NCBI GenBank assembly: GCA_002692855.1
Contig: NZMJ01000084.1
Span: 72,696-122,421, forward strand
Direction: 5' to 3'
Length of the DNA: 49,726 bases
Source: Maricaulis sp.
GTDB lineage: Bacteria; Pseudomonadota; Alphaproteobacteria; Caulobacterales; Maricaulaceae
Both the position numbers and the translations under genes were made by a program. The notes beneath the pieces are model-generated. The model did not search any database, was not told where the DNA came from, and saw only the letters and a program-made list of their open reading frames with translations. Within the stretch, counting starts at the first letter, position 1, and the number at the start of each line of letters is the position of its first letter. Positions 17,971 to 37,915 of the stretch are shown here, in pieces.

Positions 17971-17996
17971 GTAACGCGCCCCGTCTCCGGTTCGAA
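17971..17996 (+). promoter_or_regulatory. Possible sigma-F-like promoter match upstream of the DUF484 gene
   Basis: GTAACG (17971-17976), 16 bases, then CGAA (17993-17996), the same spacing as the two motifs in the sigF-bufA intergenic region. It points toward the DUF484 gene 83 bases away. Apart from that pair it was the only match found by eye in the window. A chance hit is quite possible, and DUF484-xerC is not an expected target of a metal-stress sigma factor. Confidence 0.25.
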
Positions 17997-33252: not shown

Positions 33253-33322
33253 GGCGCGCGCCCTATCTCATGCTATGAATGATGGATCGAAATCAGTCGG
33301 CAACCCATCACGGAGTGTCTCC

Positions 33323-33919
33323 ATGTTCAAGCCACGCGTCCTCTTATCGCTGATTCTCGGCAGCCTTGTGACGCTGGCGGCCTGTTCGGACACGCCGCAA
33401 ACCGACTGGACGCTGAATGGCGAGGCTTCGACGCTCAGCTTTGTTTCGGTGAAGAATGAGAGTGTGCTGGAAGCCAGCCATTTTGCCACCCTGACCGGGT
33501 CGGTCGACGAGGCCGGCAACGCCCATGTCGCAGTCCAGACCGAGACGGTCGAAACCTTTGTCGATATCCGCAATGAGCGCCTGGTCGAGCATGTCTTCCA
33601 GAGCCGCAACCACCCCCAGATCGCCATCGACACCCAGATCGACCTCGACGAATTTGAATCGCTCGAAATCGGCGAGACCATCCGCACCGAACTGACCCTG
33701 ACGGTCACGCTCGCCTCGACGCCGCGCTCGATCTACGCCGACGTGCTGGTGACCCGCGCCGGACGCGACACCGTGATCGTCGCGACCGCGGAACCGGTCA
33801 TGGTCGATGCGCGTGATTTCCGGCTCGGACCTCAGGTCGAACTGCTCGAAGCCCTCGCGGGTCTTGATTCAGTCTCGCCCGTGGCGGCCGTCAGCGCCTA
33901 TCTGGTTTTCGTCCGCTAG
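33323..33919 (+). CDS. YceI-like lipoprotein
   Basis: 198 residues from the ATG at 33323. An in-frame ATG at 33275 would delay the signal peptide and is unlikely. The lipobox LAAC places the lipidated Cys at residue 21. The mature part has the YceI pattern: WTLNGEASTLSFVSVKN, then ASHFATLTGSVDEAGNAHV, and RNERLVEHVFQ. YceI proteins are lipocalin-like beta barrels that bind isoprenoid-type ligands in the periplasm; the ligand here is unknown. It converges on the bufferin operon and overlaps bufD by four bases. Confidence 0.82.
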   Translation: MFKPRVLLSLILGSLVTLAACSDTPQTDWTLNGEASTLSFVSVKNESVLEASHFATLTGSVDEAGNAHVAVQTETVETFVDIRNERLVEHVFQSRNHPQIAIDTQIDLDEFESLEIGETIRTELTLTVTLASTPRSIYADVLVTRAGRDTVIVATAEPVMVDARDFRLGPQVELLEALAGLDSVSPVAAVSAYLVFVR

Positions 33920-34494
33920 GGCGCTCTGCGCGCGGCCAGCCGGGGACCGAACTGCCCTGCCAGTCCGTCCACGGACCAGCGCCCGCCGCCGCGTGACACC
34001 AGGTAGATCAGGATCGCGGCCCATAAAGCATGTGTGCCCCACCACGCTTCGGGGAAGACGAAGATCTGGATGACCAGCGTCATGCCCAGAAGCCCGGCGG
34101 CCGCAAATCGCGTCAGGAGACCCATCACCAGGAGGATGGGCAGAATGAATTCACCGAGCGTCGCCATCCAGGCGGCGACCTCGCCGGGGATCAGCGGCAA
34201 GGCAAAGTCGCCTTCGAACTGCCCGATGACGGCCGGGCGCAAATCAAGGGGCAGGACGGGCAGCTTCAGGTGATAACGCTGCACCGCGAAGTCATTGATC
34301 AGCTCGGTGTAGCCGAACAGGCCGAAGGTCTGCACCTTGGTCAGGAGCGACCGCCAGAACACTCCGGCAATGACGACGCGCAGGAATAGCGCCGTCGCAT
34401 CGTGGGTGACGACGCGCTGAACCGCCCCGAAACCCCGGTAATAGAGCCGCCCGAGCGGCCCGAAGAGGGGTGGATTGCCATCAAATTCTGTCAT
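33916..34494 (-). CDS. DoxX family membrane protein of the bufferin operon (BufD-like)
   Basis: 192 residues with four membrane helices and the DoxX pattern: ALFLRVVIAGVFWRSLLTKVQTF, then ATLGEFILPILLVMGLLTRFAAAGLLGM and WWGTHALWAAILIYLVSRGGGRWSVD. DoxX proteins are commonly the last gene of DUF2282-DUF692-DUF2063 operons. Its role in maturation or export of the modified peptide is not established. It overlaps bufC by 14 bases and ends four bases inside the convergent YceI gene. Confidence 0.85.
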   Translation of the reverse strand: MTEFDGNPPLFGPLGRLYYRGFGAVQRVVTHDATALFLRVVIAGVFWRSLLTKVQTFGLFGYTELINDFAVQRYHLKLPVLPLDLRPAVIGQFEGDFALPLIPGEVAAWMATLGEFILPILLVMGLLTRFAAAGLLGMTLVIQIFVFPEAWWGTHALWAAILIYLVSRGGGRWSVDGLAGQFGPRLAARRAP

Positions 34495-35227
34495 GTCTGT
34501 CCCTCGCGAAGACGCCGTCCTTCAACAGACGGATGAAAAGATCAGGGCTGGCGCCGCTCACATGCGCGGCCTCGCCGAGCGGCAGGCCGTCATCCAGCGC
34601 GTTCAGGAGTATGATTTCCGTGGCCGAGAGCGTGCGGTAGCGCACCTCCATTGCGGGCCGCCACACCAGGACTGTCTCCTCGCATTGCGTCCCCGCCCGC
34701 TCGACCCGCGACTGGAACCGCGCTGCCGTCCAGGTCGTAAGAATTGGCCGGTCATGGGCCGGACGCCTCACGGAAGGATGGAGATCCACGAACAGACCGG
34801 AAAACCCGTCTGCGTCCAGCGTGCGGATATCGCCCGGCGACAAGGTGGGCGCATCCGCGCTGTGGTGGGCCTCCCCCCAGGCGCGGTCGATGCGGGCGAT
34901 GGCCGGCAGGAAGGCAGGCATGCCGCGCGGCGCCTCGTGGCTGAGATGGTCGGCAAAGCCGTCCCCATAGAGCAGCATCGGCCCGGCGTGCGGTGGGTGA
35001 GCCTGCCAGTAGGACTTGGCCAGCGCCGCGAAATTGCCATCTCCGGCAAGGAATCGGACGGACGGATAATTGTCGCCCAGCACATCGATCACGCCGCGCA
35101 CAACGGTATTGCGGTAGACGCTCAGCGCCGCGGCGTGTCCCGGTTCCGGCACGAAGCCATCGCGCGCCACATCCTTTCCGCCCCGCAGGACGGCCGCGAA
35201 GCGGGCATGGAAGCCGGCGTCAGACAT
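34481..35227 (-). CDS. DUF2063 partner protein of the MNIO enzyme (BufC-like)
   Basis: 248 residues. The N-terminal domain has the family blocks FAAVLRGG, LSVYRNTVVRGVIDVLGDNYPSVRFLAGDGNFAALAKSY-type sequence and HPPHAGPMLLYGDGFADHL. The C-terminal part (about 130-248) is more variable. These proteins work with DUF692 (MNIO) enzymes and are thought to bind the precursor peptide like a RiPP recognition element. It overlaps bufB by eight bases and bufD by 14, so translation is coupled. An older annotation of this family as DNA-binding is probably misleading here. Confidence 0.86.
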   Translation of the reverse strand: MSDAGFHARFAAVLRGGKDVARDGFVPEPGHAAALSVYRNTVVRGVIDVLGDNYPSVRFLAGDGNFAALAKSYWQAHPPHAGPMLLYGDGFADHLSHEAPRGMPAFLPAIARIDRAWGEAHHSADAPTLSPGDIRTLDADGFSGLFVDLHPSVRRPAHDRPILTTWTAARFQSRVERAGTQCEETVLVWRPAMEVRYRTLSATEIILLNALDDGLPLGEAAHVSGASPDLFIRLLKDGVFARDRHDRI

Positions 35228-36098
35228 GTGACAGGGCCGCCTTGCGTCCCGGTGAAGCAGCCGCGCGGTCGAGCACCGCCTGCGCCTGCGCGCGTTCGTC
35301 CATCAGGACGTCAAACGCAGGAAGATTGTTGTCGCGCTCGATCAGTGTCGGCAGCGGGCCCGCTTGCGCGATGACATGGGCGTATAGCGTCCAGACCGGG
35401 TCGCTGACCGGCGCCCCGTGAGTGTCAATCAGCAGACCGGTATCCGGATCGCCATCAGCCTCATGCCCGGCCAGGTGGATTTCGCGCACCGCTTCGAGCG
35501 GGAAGGCGTCGATATAGGCGTGAACCTCGCGGGCCAGGTTGTTCGCGGTCACGACCACATTGTTGAGATCGAGGAGCAGGCTGCACCCCGTCCGGCGAAC
35601 CGCCTCGCCCAGAAACTCGCCTTCGCTCATCTCGCCCTTGAGCGACAGGTAGAGCGACGGATTCTCGATCAGTATCGGGCGGCCGAGCGCGTCCTGCGCT
35701 TCTTCAACATGGTCGCAAAAGCGGTTCAGCGCGCCGCGCGTATAAGGCAGGGGCAAAAGGTCGTTGAAATAGACACCGTCATGACGGCACCAGGCGAGAT
35801 GTTCCGACACCAGGGCCGGCCGGAACCGGTCGACCAGGCCGCGAAAGCGCGCCAGATGGTCCTTGTCGGGACGCTCTTCGCCGCCCAGCGACAACGATAC
35901 GCCGTGCAGGGACACGGGGTGCCGTTCGGCAATGGCGTCGAGCCAGGCGAGCCGCGGCCCGCCCTCCCCCATGTAATTTTCCGGATGCACCTCCACCCAC
36001 AACCCGTCGGCTTCGCTCTCGAGCGCGGCGCGATAGTGCGCCGGCTTGAGGCCGATACCGGCTCCAGGAGGGGAAGCGGGGGTGTGGGTGGAGGTCAT
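35220..36098 (-). CDS. MNIO family (DUF692) multinuclear iron enzyme, bufferin-modifying (BufB-like)
   Basis: MNIO enzymes are TIM-barrel, multi-iron oxidative enzymes that modify Cys residues of ribosomally made peptides, for example to oxazolone-thioamide or 5-thiooxazole groups. The 292-residue product has the family's metal ligand pattern: His65 in SLHGVS, His100 in SEHLAW, Glu145 in IENPS, Asp177/Asn179 in LLDLNN, His208 and His212 in IHLAGH, His227 in DTHG and Glu254 in IERD. It follows bufA by 22 bases, and its end overlaps bufC. Its expected substrate is the adjacent Cys-containing precursor. Confidence 0.93.
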   Translation of the reverse strand: MTSTHTPASPPGAGIGLKPAHYRAALESEADGLWVEVHPENYMGEGGPRLAWLDAIAERHPVSLHGVSLSLGGEERPDKDHLARFRGLVDRFRPALVSEHLAWCRHDGVYFNDLLPLPYTRGALNRFCDHVEEAQDALGRPILIENPSLYLSLKGEMSEGEFLGEAVRRTGCSLLLDLNNVVVTANNLAREVHAYIDAFPLEAVREIHLAGHEADGDPDTGLLIDTHGAPVSDPVWTLYAHVIAQAGPLPTLIERDNNLPAFDVLMDERAQAQAVLDRAAASPGRKAALSHV

Positions 36099-36120
36099 CG
36101 CGAACGCCGTCGGGGGGAGA

Positions 36121-36414
36121 TTACGGACGTTCGACCGGAGTCAGCGAACCAGTGCCATAGGGCGTCTGGATGTCTTCGCAGGTGCCTTCGTCGACATAGG
36201 TCCAGGCATTTCCCTGGTAATCGACCGTCGAGGTTCCAGCGCACGACGTGCCCTCGCCGGCGGCACAATCGTTTTCGCCAGCCAGCGACACGCCGTAGCA
36301 GCGTTCCTGGCCTTCCGGCGACATGTCTTCGTCATCGGCATGCGCGACGGCGGCGGCCATCGACAGGGCAAAGGCGGACGCCGTGACGGCAGCGATCTTG
36401 GAGCGGGTGTTCAT
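36121..36414 (-). CDS. Bufferin-type RiPP precursor (DUF2282), four-cysteine exported peptide
   Basis: 97 residues from the ATG at 36414, which follows GAAGGAAAT. A signal peptide ends near AHA (residue 26). The mature part has the DUF2282 signature [15 protein letters not shown], then TSCAG and GTCED, giving four Cys at 39, 50, 58 and 79. In characterised bufferins of Caulobacter the MNIO enzyme converts Cys residues to thiooxazoles that bind copper. By homology Cys50 and Cys58 are the likely modified pair and Cys39/Cys79 a disulfide; this is inferred. It is the first gene of the operon, behind a sigma-F-like promoter. Confidence 0.9.
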
Positions 36415-36476
36415 GGATTCATTTCCTTCGAGATTGAAACACGAGCGCCGACCTTTTCGGGTGCGGCACTGGGTCA

Positions 36477-36502
36477 TTCGCTGAAGGACGCCCGATCGTT
36501 AC
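36477..36502 (-). promoter_or_regulatory. Sigma-F-type ECF promoter of the bufferin operon
   Basis: On the minus strand GTAACG (36497-36502), 16 bases, then CGAA (36477-36480). The same architecture occurs in front of the sigma factor gene. It resembles the GTAACC-N16-CGAA motif I recall for Caulobacter sigma-F targets. It would start transcription near 36470, about 55 bases before the bufA ATG. Confidence 0.78.
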
Positions 36503-36692
36503 ACTCCGAATACGTCGTATTTGTCGCTCCAGCAGTGGTAACGGCACAAGCAACTGATTTTATTTGAATAATTGGCACAGTCACTTGATGGTCACGGCCC
36601 CGTGATTGATTGCGACTGGCGGTTGCCTGGCGGTTCCGGCATGACGCCGCGGCGCATTTGGCGCTAAACATGTCAGACAGTCCGGCGCGCCT

Positions 36693-36718
36693 GTAACCTT
36701 TCGCGCGCGACCAGCGAA
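36693..36718 (+). promoter_or_regulatory. Sigma-F-type ECF promoter of sigF-nrsF (autoregulation)
   Basis: GTAACC (36693-36698), 16 bases, then CGAA (36715-36718) on the plus strand. Transcription would start near 36725, just before the possible GTG start at 36726 and 13 bases before the ATG at 36738. The message is therefore nearly leaderless. It implies positive autoregulation of the sigma factor. Confidence 0.8.
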
Positions 36719-36737
36719 TAAGGCAGTGACAAGGGTC

Positions 36738-37283
36738 ATGACCGACGGCGAAATCGCCTTCCGCGCCCTGATGGTGCTGAGCCAGTCCGGTGACCGGCAG
36801 GCCTATCGTACGCTGCTGGAATCCGTGCGCGCGCCGTTGCTGGCCTATTTCACCCGCCGCCTGACCCGGGACCAGGCTGGCGCCGAGGACCTGGTACAGG
36901 AAACACTGATGGCCGTGCATGACAAACGCGCTACCTATGACGCCGCCCGGCCCTTCTCCGGTTGGCTCTATGGCATTGCGCGCTACAAGCTGATCGACCA
37001 TTACCGGCGCCACAGCCGCCGGGTCACGGTCGAACTCAAGGACGACGATGCAGTGATGGCTATCGAACCAGCCATCGCCGCACGGCTTGATGTCGAGACC
37101 CTGCTCGCCCGCCTGCCCGCAAAGCAGGCGGCTGCGATCCGGATGACCCGGCTGACCGGACTGACGGCACGCGAAGCCGCTGACCGGCTCGGGACCACGG
37201 AATCCTCGGTGAAGGTCAGCGTGCACCGGGGACTGAAAACCGCTGCGCTGGGTGCGACGCCTCCAGGAGACGGAACGTCATGA
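36738..37283 (+). CDS. sigF: ECF RNA polymerase sigma factor, sigma-F-like
   Basis: 181 residues. Region 2 is visible (LLAYFTRRLTRDQAGAEDLVQET, then RPFSGWLYGIARYKLIDHYRR), and region 4 (LLARLPAKQAAAIRMTRLTG, then AREAADRLGTTESSVKVSVHRG). There is no region 3, as in ECF factors. The ATG at 36738 has AAGGG close upstream; a GTG at 36726 is an alternative and would be leaderless. Its four-base overlap with an NrsF-type anti-sigma gene and the adjacent bufferin operon match the Caulobacter sigma-F system, which responds to chromium, cadmium and copper stress. The inducer here is inferred. Confidence 0.9.
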   Translation: MTDGEIAFRALMVLSQSGDRQAYRTLLESVRAPLLAYFTRRLTRDQAGAEDLVQETLMAVHDKRATYDAARPFSGWLYGIARYKLIDHYRRHSRRVTVELKDDDAVMAIEPAIAARLDVETLLARLPAKQAAAIRMTRLTGLTAREAADRLGTTESSVKVSVHRGLKTAALGATPPGDGTS

Positions 37284-37915
37284 CGAACCCTATCGACGAT
37301 CTGGTCAACGACCTGGAGCCGGTATCGCCCCGCCCTTTGCGCCATCTTGCTCTGCGGTGGATCTTGCCCGCCCTGACGATCTCCACCCTGTTTGTCGTCC
37401 TCTGGATCGGGGTCCGTCCCGACATGCCCGGCGCCCTCACCCTTCCGTCCTTCTGGGTAAAGCTGGCTGCAATGGTCGCGATTGCTGCCGGCGCGGCCCT
37501 GTCCCTGTTCGCCCTGTCCCGCCCCGATGGTACGGGCGGGCGCGGCTTGGTGGTTTCCATGCTCGTTGCGGGTCTGGTGCTGGCTGCGGGACTGATCGTA
37601 CTGGCGATCGCGCCGAGTGACTTGCGGACCGAAACGCTCCTGGGTCATTCCTGGAATCGCTGCGTGCCGCGTGTGATCGCAGCCGCCCTGCCGGTCTTCG
37701 CAGCCAGCATCCTGGTGCTGCGCGCGATGGCCCCGACCCGGCTGCGCCTGGCCGGGTTTGCCGCCGGACTGTTTGCAGGCGCTGCAGGTGCAGCGGTCTA
37801 TTCGCTCAGTTGCACCGAAACGAGCCTGACCTTCCTGGCGGTCTGGTATCAGGGCGCAGTTCTGATCGTGGCGCTACTGGGCGCCCTCATGGGTCCGCGC
37901 CTGCTGCGCTGGTAA
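37280..37915 (+). CDS. nrsF: NrsF (DUF1109) family membrane anti-sigma factor
   Basis: 211 residues: an N-terminal cytoplasmic segment (MTNPIDDLVNDLEPVSPRPLRH-type), then six membrane helices. Two Cys lie at positions expected for the NrsF family: Cys128 in LGHSWNRC and Cys178 in YSLSCTET. In Caulobacter two equivalent Cys of NrsF are needed for release of sigma-F under metal stress. The start overlaps the sigma factor stop (ATGA), so the pair is made in fixed ratio. It converges with a secreted-protein gene two bases away. Confidence 0.88.
   Translation: MTNPIDDLVNDLEPVSPRPLRHLALRWILPALTISTLFVVLWIGVRPDMPGALTLPSFWVKLAAMVAIAAGAALSLFALSRPDGTGGRGLVVSMLVAGLVLAAGLIVLAIAPSDLRTETLLGHSWNRCVPRVIAAALPVFAASILVLRAMAPTRLRLAGFAAGLFAGAAGAAVYSLSCTETSLTFLAVWYQGAVLIVALLGALMGPRLLRW

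Follow-up and report, generated by a model that had tools for sequence, protein, structure and literature searches.

The closest described relative of the system analyzed here is the Buf1 bufferin cluster of Caulobacter vibrioides/crescentus (CCNA_03363-03366), which has the same gene set and the same sigma-F control, with the sigma factor SigF encoded by CCNA_03362 and the anti-sigma factor NrsF by CCNA_03273. In Buf1, the two central cysteines are reported to be modified and the outer two to be linked by a disulphide, and the C. vibrioides peptide is reported to chelate copper; a UV band near 305 nm is also described for bufferins (PMC12452194). The C. crescentus cluster is described as controlled by SigF and induced by copper, and a sigF::Tn5 mutant as copper-sensitive (PMC8224329). 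Thiooxazole copper peptides as a class include the gig/captophorin clusters (PMC13097082, PMC12452194). More precisely, the C. metallidurans gig, H. influenzae hvf, and fontiphorin clusters have, like the locus presented here, an MNIO enzyme with a DUF2063 partner and often a DoxX protein, whereas the hvf and fontiphorin precursors carry EGKCG repeats (PMC13097082) and ours is a DUF2282 protein. This locus, bufABCD with a divergent sigF-nrsF pair, lies in a stretch of 49,726 nucleotides of Maricaulis sp., a relative of Hyphobacterium (contig NZMJ01000084.1, positions 72,696 to 122,421), which we call the window. We give a probability of about 0.88 to the following reading: the cluster is a complete BufA1 one, its peptide is predicted to carry thiooxazoles and would be exported to buffer an excess of copper in the periplasm, and a sigma-F/NrsF pair of its own likely turns it on from two divergent sigma-F-type promoters.

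The six genes of the system occupy positions 33916-37915 of the window. All six reading frames are intact, and in a profile search the Pfam scores of all six products exceed the respective cut-offs. The genes and the promoters between them are as follows:

36121-36414, minus strand: bufA, DUF2282/Buf1 bufferin precursor of 97 residues (Pfam PF10048, 85.3 bits)
35220-36098, minus strand: bufB, MNIO (DUF692) enzyme (Pfam PF05114 MbnB_TglH_ChrH, 338.3 bits; NCBIfam NF050167 MNIO_BufB, 365 bits)
34481-35227, minus strand: bufC, DUF2063 partner protein (PME-type 1) of 248 residues (Pfam PF09836, 62.5 bits)
33916-34494, minus strand: bufD, DoxX-family membrane protein (Pfam PF07681, 51.9 bits)
36726 (GTG) or 36738 (ATG) to 37283, plus strand: sigF-like gene of an extracytoplasmic function (ECF) sigma factor (Pfam Sigma70_r2, 60.3 bits, and r4_2)
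37280-37915, plus strand: nrsF, membrane anti-sigma factor (Pfam PF06532, 201.6 bits)
36476-36503, minus strand: sigma-F-type promoter facing bufA, exact match to TGTAACG-N16-CGAAT
36692-36719, plus strand: sigma-F-type promoter facing sigF-nrsF, exact match to TGTAACC-N16-CGAAT, with predicted autoregulation

The original prediction had placed these six genes and named their families, all of which were recovered, and had set bufABCD divergent from the ECF sigma factor and NrsF, with which strands and Pfam matches agree. It had also described bufA to bufD as overlapping in one operon. This is true for three of the four genes, since there are overlaps of 8 nt between bufB and bufC and of 14 nt between bufC and bufD, whereas a gap of 22 nt separates bufA from bufB. 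The sigma factor gene overlaps nrsF by 4 nt in a single operon, and its start looks likelier to be the ATG at 36738, preceded by AAGGG, than the GTG at 36726. Divergent bufA and sigF are separated by 311 bp, and the genes on either side of this region are presumably co-transcribed with one another.

We regard the locus as a complete cluster for a type-1 bufferin (BufA1) and as a further member of a class already described. We count it as a known system because the sigma factor and NrsF genes reported in Buf1 clusters, as well as the C. crescentus copper response, are already in print (PMC12452194, PMC8224329). The assignment to the bufferin-type operons draws on the gene set, the relatives of BufA, and the match of BufB to its family model. 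We found 5,614 relatives of BufA; among the 120 listed, the named sources are mostly Hyphobacterium, Maricaulis, and Glycocaulis, and several close ones already bear the name "BufA1 family periplasmic bufferin-type metallophore". BufB reaches 365 bits against NF050167, "MNIO family bufferin maturase" (cut-off 310), while four other listed MNIO subfamily models score lower and none attains its own cut-off. The His/Glu/Asp set of MNIO enzymes that had been claimed for BufB is present: H65, E99, H100, D113, E145, D177, H208, D225, H227, and E254 are invariant in all 81 rows of an alignment of the window with 80 other loci, and the ligands of the metal, which we take to be iron, are presumably among them. 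BufB also aligns with the solved MNIO proteins 3bww and 8hci; the latter is probably TglH, given that 8hi7 is presented as TglI in PMC12452194. A sequence search of the PDB with BufC gave no match at E up to 1.

The peptide itself is close to its Caulobacter counterpart where the chemistry is expected to occur. As claimed, BufA has cysteines at positions 39, 50, 58, and 79, which are invariant across the 23 rows of our alignment, behind a putative Sec signal peptide that we read by eye, with a likely cleavage after residue 26 (AHA|DD). The 10-7-20 spacing of these cysteines is common to 72 of 80 BufA cores, the remaining 8 having 10-8-20. When aligned with the bufferin of C. vibrioides OR37 (L083), whose locus shares the divergent arrangement, the window core has the same cysteine spacing, identical residues at 40 of 59 positions, and the same GTSCAGTS around the third cysteine and ND before the second. 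The original prediction had argued that the core differs from those of Caulobacter and had drawn from this a doubt over the modified residues. The difference holds for charge and not for cysteine spacing or the context of the third cysteine, and these matches make the doubt weaker than was stated and mostly unfounded. The captophorin study reports little conservation around the cysteines of DUF2282 precursors (PMC13097082). A PDB sequence search with BufA returned nothing meaningful (best E 0.13).

The two sigma-F-type promoters stand back to back, 188 nt apart, reading from 36503 to 36476 towards bufA and from 36692 to 36719 towards sigF; such a divergent pair at this locus appears to be new here. 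The sigF-side site agrees with the consensus reported for C. crescentus sigma-F, GTAACC-N16-CGAA (PMC3511200), and the bufA-side site has a G in place of the last C of the -35 element. Its 3' end lies 61 nt from the bufA ATG, a layout similar to that of the C. crescentus ortholog, for which a transcription start at -61 relative to the proposed start codon is reported (PMC3511200). The sigma factor scores 171.3 bits against NCBIfam PRK12539 (cut-off 171). Two cysteines of NrsF are conserved, C178 in all 49 rows of the alignment and C128 in 48 of them, the remaining row having a gap. From their position and spacing, they are probably the equivalents of the conserved C131 and C181 of C. crescentus NrsF, whose substitution is reported to raise the regulon (PMC3511200). 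Together with the association described next, the divergent promoters and these cysteines support the local sigma-F control that had been proposed.

The strongest support that sequence data alone provide for control of bufA by sigma-F/NrsF is the co-occurrence of the promoter motif with NrsF. Of 473 confirmed relatives, retrieved with BufB, we kept the best 80 as named loci, a choice that biases the set to close homologues. Going by record titles, these come from Alphaproteobacteria (Caulobacterales-type and others) and from Burkholderia-type and Pseudomonas-type genomes. In 70 of them the sequence before bufA was long enough and the start of the gene could be recovered, and these were scored for the 12-position consensus TGTAACC-N16-CGAAT up to 300 bp upstream of bufA, with a threshold of at least 10 matches. 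Eight loci were dropped for having less than 2000 bp upstream of bufA (L027, L030, L043, L064, L071, L076, L086, L093), one for a truncated bufA (L075), and one because the start codon was not recovered (L025); the strict motif is found in five of these ten (L025, L027, L043, L076, L093) and not in the other five. The motif precedes bufA in 42 of the 44 loci with a local sigF-nrsF pair, where it has 10-12 of 12 matches and lies 64-246 nt upstream, versus 7 of the 26 loci without the pair (Fisher p ~2e-9). Six of these seven have NrsF elsewhere in the genome (L032, L074, L094, L048, L091, L090), if only a distant one in L048 and L091 (96 and 87 bits). When NrsF is counted anywhere in the genome, the motif is found in 48/50 loci with it and in 1/19 where none was found (Fisher p ~2e-13, uncorrected for relatedness); the 19 include L072, which its accession led us to treat as one assembly with L070, and L081 stands outside this count. 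With the strict motif only, the count is 35/45 with the local pair and 3/26 without. After single-base shuffling of these upstream regions, the mean was 7.5 matches, and 9 of the 70 loci reached 10 or more at least once in 20 shuffles.

Several results weigh against the reading of a copper bufferin under its own sigma-F switch. The 70 loci are related, so the p values overstate their independence. Two loci with a local pair have no motif (L024, L082), and L053 has a weak motif with no NrsF found in its genome. The window NrsF scores 147.6 bits against NCBIfam AntiSigF_NrsF, below the cut-off of 300. BufC and BufD remain below the cut-offs of the HvfC (26.6 bits, cut-off 142) and HvfX (37.2 bits, cut-off 80) models, as would be expected of a different branch. 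The AlphaFold2 model of BufA has a mean predicted local distance difference test score of 59.4, a quality too low for the pairing of Cys39 with Cys79 to be assessed. In C. crescentus, sigma-F responds to chromate and cadmium as well and is reported not to be strongly autoregulated (PMC3511200), so neither copper specificity nor a self-amplifying loop is assured. Relatives retain bufABCD without sigma-F, which means that the cluster can be maintained in the absence of the switch. Finally, the strict motif TGTAAC-N16/17-CGAAT has five matches in the genome, and its reversed control still has two.

Two of these five matches are at the locus, two are copies on contig C172, and one, with a shorter spacing, is on C163 (L005). 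Window positions 8340-49726 recur on C172 of the same assembly with 5 mismatches over 41,387 bp (99.99%). Since the assembly (4.07 Mb) is listed with 5.89% contamination, we read this copy as assembly redundancy or a near-identical strain and not as evidence for a second operon. The relaxed motif GTAAC-N17-CGAA has 16 matches, versus 32 for its reversed control: four are the locus sites and their C172 copies, ten fall within mechanically called open reading frames of at least 80 residues, and two are an intergenic site at window position 17971 (plus strand), 82 nt before an open reading frame, and its C172 copy, which we judged to be chance. The strict and relaxed patterns gave no further convincing promoter of a wider sigma-F regulon in this genome, in which no search was aimed at MsrP/MsrQ. 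Because the strict motif is found, C172 aside, at the locus and one other place, and the relaxed one is not enriched, the reach of the window sigma factor looks local. This is unlike C. crescentus, where sigma-F is reported to drive also a second, paralogous operon and msrPQ (PMC3511200, PMC8224329); apart from the duplicate contig, we found no second DUF2282 or MNIO gene in the window genome.

The way in which the system would work can be outlined by analogy with Caulobacter. Excess copper, or another thiol-reactive metal, would act on C128 and C178 of NrsF, as suggested by C131 and C181 in C. crescentus. The released sigma factor may then read both promoters of the intergenic region, raising bufABCD and its own operon. 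BufB, together with BufC, is predicted to oxidise the central Cys50 and Cys58 of BufA to thiooxazoles before export, and Cys39 and Cys79 would pair as a disulphide, both by analogy with published Buf1. The Sec system would export the peptide, which would chelate periplasmic copper, with DoxX possibly in an accessory role. The gene set, the promoters, and the C. crescentus parallel, a precedent that the original prediction had rightly invoked, favor its interpretation of a complete, locally controlled copper-defence unit, in which modification, export, copper binding, and metal induction are all expected from the analogy.

One can also suppose that the bufferin is made but that its physiological signal or ligand is chromate, cadmium, gold or silver, or thiol oxidation, copper being secondary. 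We consider this unlikely, although it has points in its favor. Besides the induction of the C. crescentus regulon by chromate and cadmium, the homologous gig cluster of C. metallidurans is reported to answer gold, silver, and copper, with copper resistance unaffected (PMC8224329). We found no copper-efflux gene among the 14 neighbourhood proteins scanned, and the acidic BufA core could shift the choice of metal. However, loss of sigF in C. crescentus is reported to leave chromate and cadmium tolerance unchanged and to reduce growth in copper (PMC3511200, PMC8224329), and the cysteine spacing and the context of the third cysteine are those of the OR37 bufferin.

A further alternative concerns the switch. 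The chief point of note at this locus is that most of the sampled relatives with the peptide genes are without it, and one may ask if the cluster has a basal, sigma-F-independent expression, presumably as in these NrsF-less kin, with the sigma pair mainly serving something else. We grouped 13 named loci as Maricaulis/Hyphobacterium/Glycocaulis-like by title and BufB identity (with four metagenome-assembled genomes titled only "Alphaproteobacteria" or "Rhodobacterales"), and found no NrsF in the genomes of 10 of them, whose completeness is not stated. The Hyphobacterium indicum and Maricaulis-like clusters (L016-L020, L022, L023, L028, L031, L036) have the bufABCD order and acidic BufA cores of the window, but unlike it have no sigF-nrsF beside them, no NrsF found in the genome, and no motif with at least 10 of 12 matches. 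We also drew 150 genomes of the order separately. The family of the window accounts for 30 of them, its own genome included; 12 of these 30 have DUF2282, of which 3 have NrsF (G000, G067, G096) and 9 do not. These counts and those of the 13 loci are not independent, because several genomes occur in both. In the whole draw, DUF2282 is found in 33 genomes, NrsF in 54, and both in 19. The other 35 of the 54 NrsF genomes have no DUF2282 match, and in these the pair presumably controls something else than a DUF2282 bufferin. Nevertheless, we regard an uncoupled module as very improbable in the window, where the bufA promoter motif is present, the six reading frames are intact, and no other convincing sigma-F target was found in the genome, and motif and NrsF travel together across loci.

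The same-genus relatives G022 (H. indicum) and G161, both 99-100% complete, are without NrsF and have two DUF2282 genes each. One belongs to a bufABCD cluster that has YceI, MFS, and sucC genes after it as in the window, and in G022 it is also preceded by DUF1036, which puts the H. indicum cluster at the same chromosomal site. The second (L157, L158) is a stand-alone BufA, 69-72% identical to that of the window over the region that matches, and the surrounding 12 kb contain no match to bufBCD. In a joined SigF and NrsF tree, from which loci with a SigF or NrsF match of up to 120 residues were left out and to which L163, L169, L170, and L171 were added, the window joins L015 first, next Glycocaulis, and after that Maricaulis, with supports of 1.0, 0.99, and 0.98. 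Since this tree suggests inheritance with losses, the simplest reading is that the ancestor of the family had sigF-nrsF and that the pair has disappeared on several occasions. An NrsF of Maricaulis maris is aligned in PMC3511200, so the genus is mixed in this respect, and our draw shows likewise. The importance of induced synthesis can be studied here as a natural experiment, in that bufferin clusters occupying the same chromosomal site differ in having or lacking sigF-nrsF. Among the publications listed in a literature search, none is on the bufferins of this group by title or abstract opening.

An upstream alignment and a pattern search revealed no replacement regulator or promoter in the kin without sigma-F. 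The alignment of some Maricaulis-like loci had suggested an alternative promoter, GTTAYTGG-N18-GSCTAG, which we dropped: with spacings of 17-19, it has 6 matches in 14 genomes, versus 11 for the reversed-pattern control, and of the six, four are in genomes from which the pattern was derived (G006, G008, G010, G012) and two are away from bufA (G013, G136). Visual inspection of L022 upstream of bufA showed a perfect inverted repeat, GCGATAAC-6 nt-GTTATCGC, close to the stop of the preceding gene, and in L031 the changes in it are paired; it is a candidate terminator or operator.

Methanobactin-like copper acquisition instead of defence is already disfavored and most improbable: BufB is related to MbnB (46.7 bits to the solved 7dz9), but it scores 64.2 bits against the MbnB model TIGR04159 (cut-off 325) while exceeding the cut-off of the BufB model, the precursor is a DUF2282 protein with a putative signal peptide and a DUF2063 partner, and no uptake receptor is among the 14 neighbourhood proteins scanned.

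While the defence cluster resembles that of Caulobacter in its cysteines, its peptide differs in charge, being acidic and lysine-free. With cleavage sites assumed, mature BufA contains two arginines next to 15 acidic residues, and its isoelectric point is computed at ~4.05, versus ~9.2 in OR37. The core has a charge of -8, the joint lowest among 80 cores. The median BufA charge per 100 residues is -11.5 in the 13 grouped loci and +5.0 in the other 66, with no such shift in the partner proteins (BufB -6.1 vs -5.2; BufC -2.5 vs -3.4). Acidity extends beyond the group, as L026, L030, L037, L040, and L053 reach -6 to -7, and two (L027, L037) of the 14 lysine-free cores among 79 loci are also outside it. 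It is possible, and we propose it tentatively, that these peptides form an acidic, lysine-free Maricaulis/Hyphobacterium-type subclass of Buf1, whose reversed charge would tune metal choice or protein contacts, and that the cluster was repeatedly freed from an ancestral sigma-F switch, the window organism keeping a metal-inducible bufferin and its relatives having theirs under other control. With such a peptide one can ask which features of Buf1, other than its cysteines, are important for its modification and for the choice of metal.

Other arrangements of the pair were seen. In the Glycocaulis locus L029, sigF-nrsF have the same direction as bufA instead of being divergent, the sigma-F motif is well upstream (+2210), and an open reading frame that we named by eye as a CcdA/DsbD-like membrane protein lies between motif and sigF. 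In L169 (G057), the sigma pair occurs in a genome without DUF2282, with a sigma-F motif well upstream (-8463). Next to the system as counted, the window has one neighbour:

33275-33919, plus strand: YceI-family gene (Pfam PF04264, 29.8 bits)

It is convergent with bufD, the stop codons of both overlapping, and a YceI gene is also near the cluster in the H. indicum kin.

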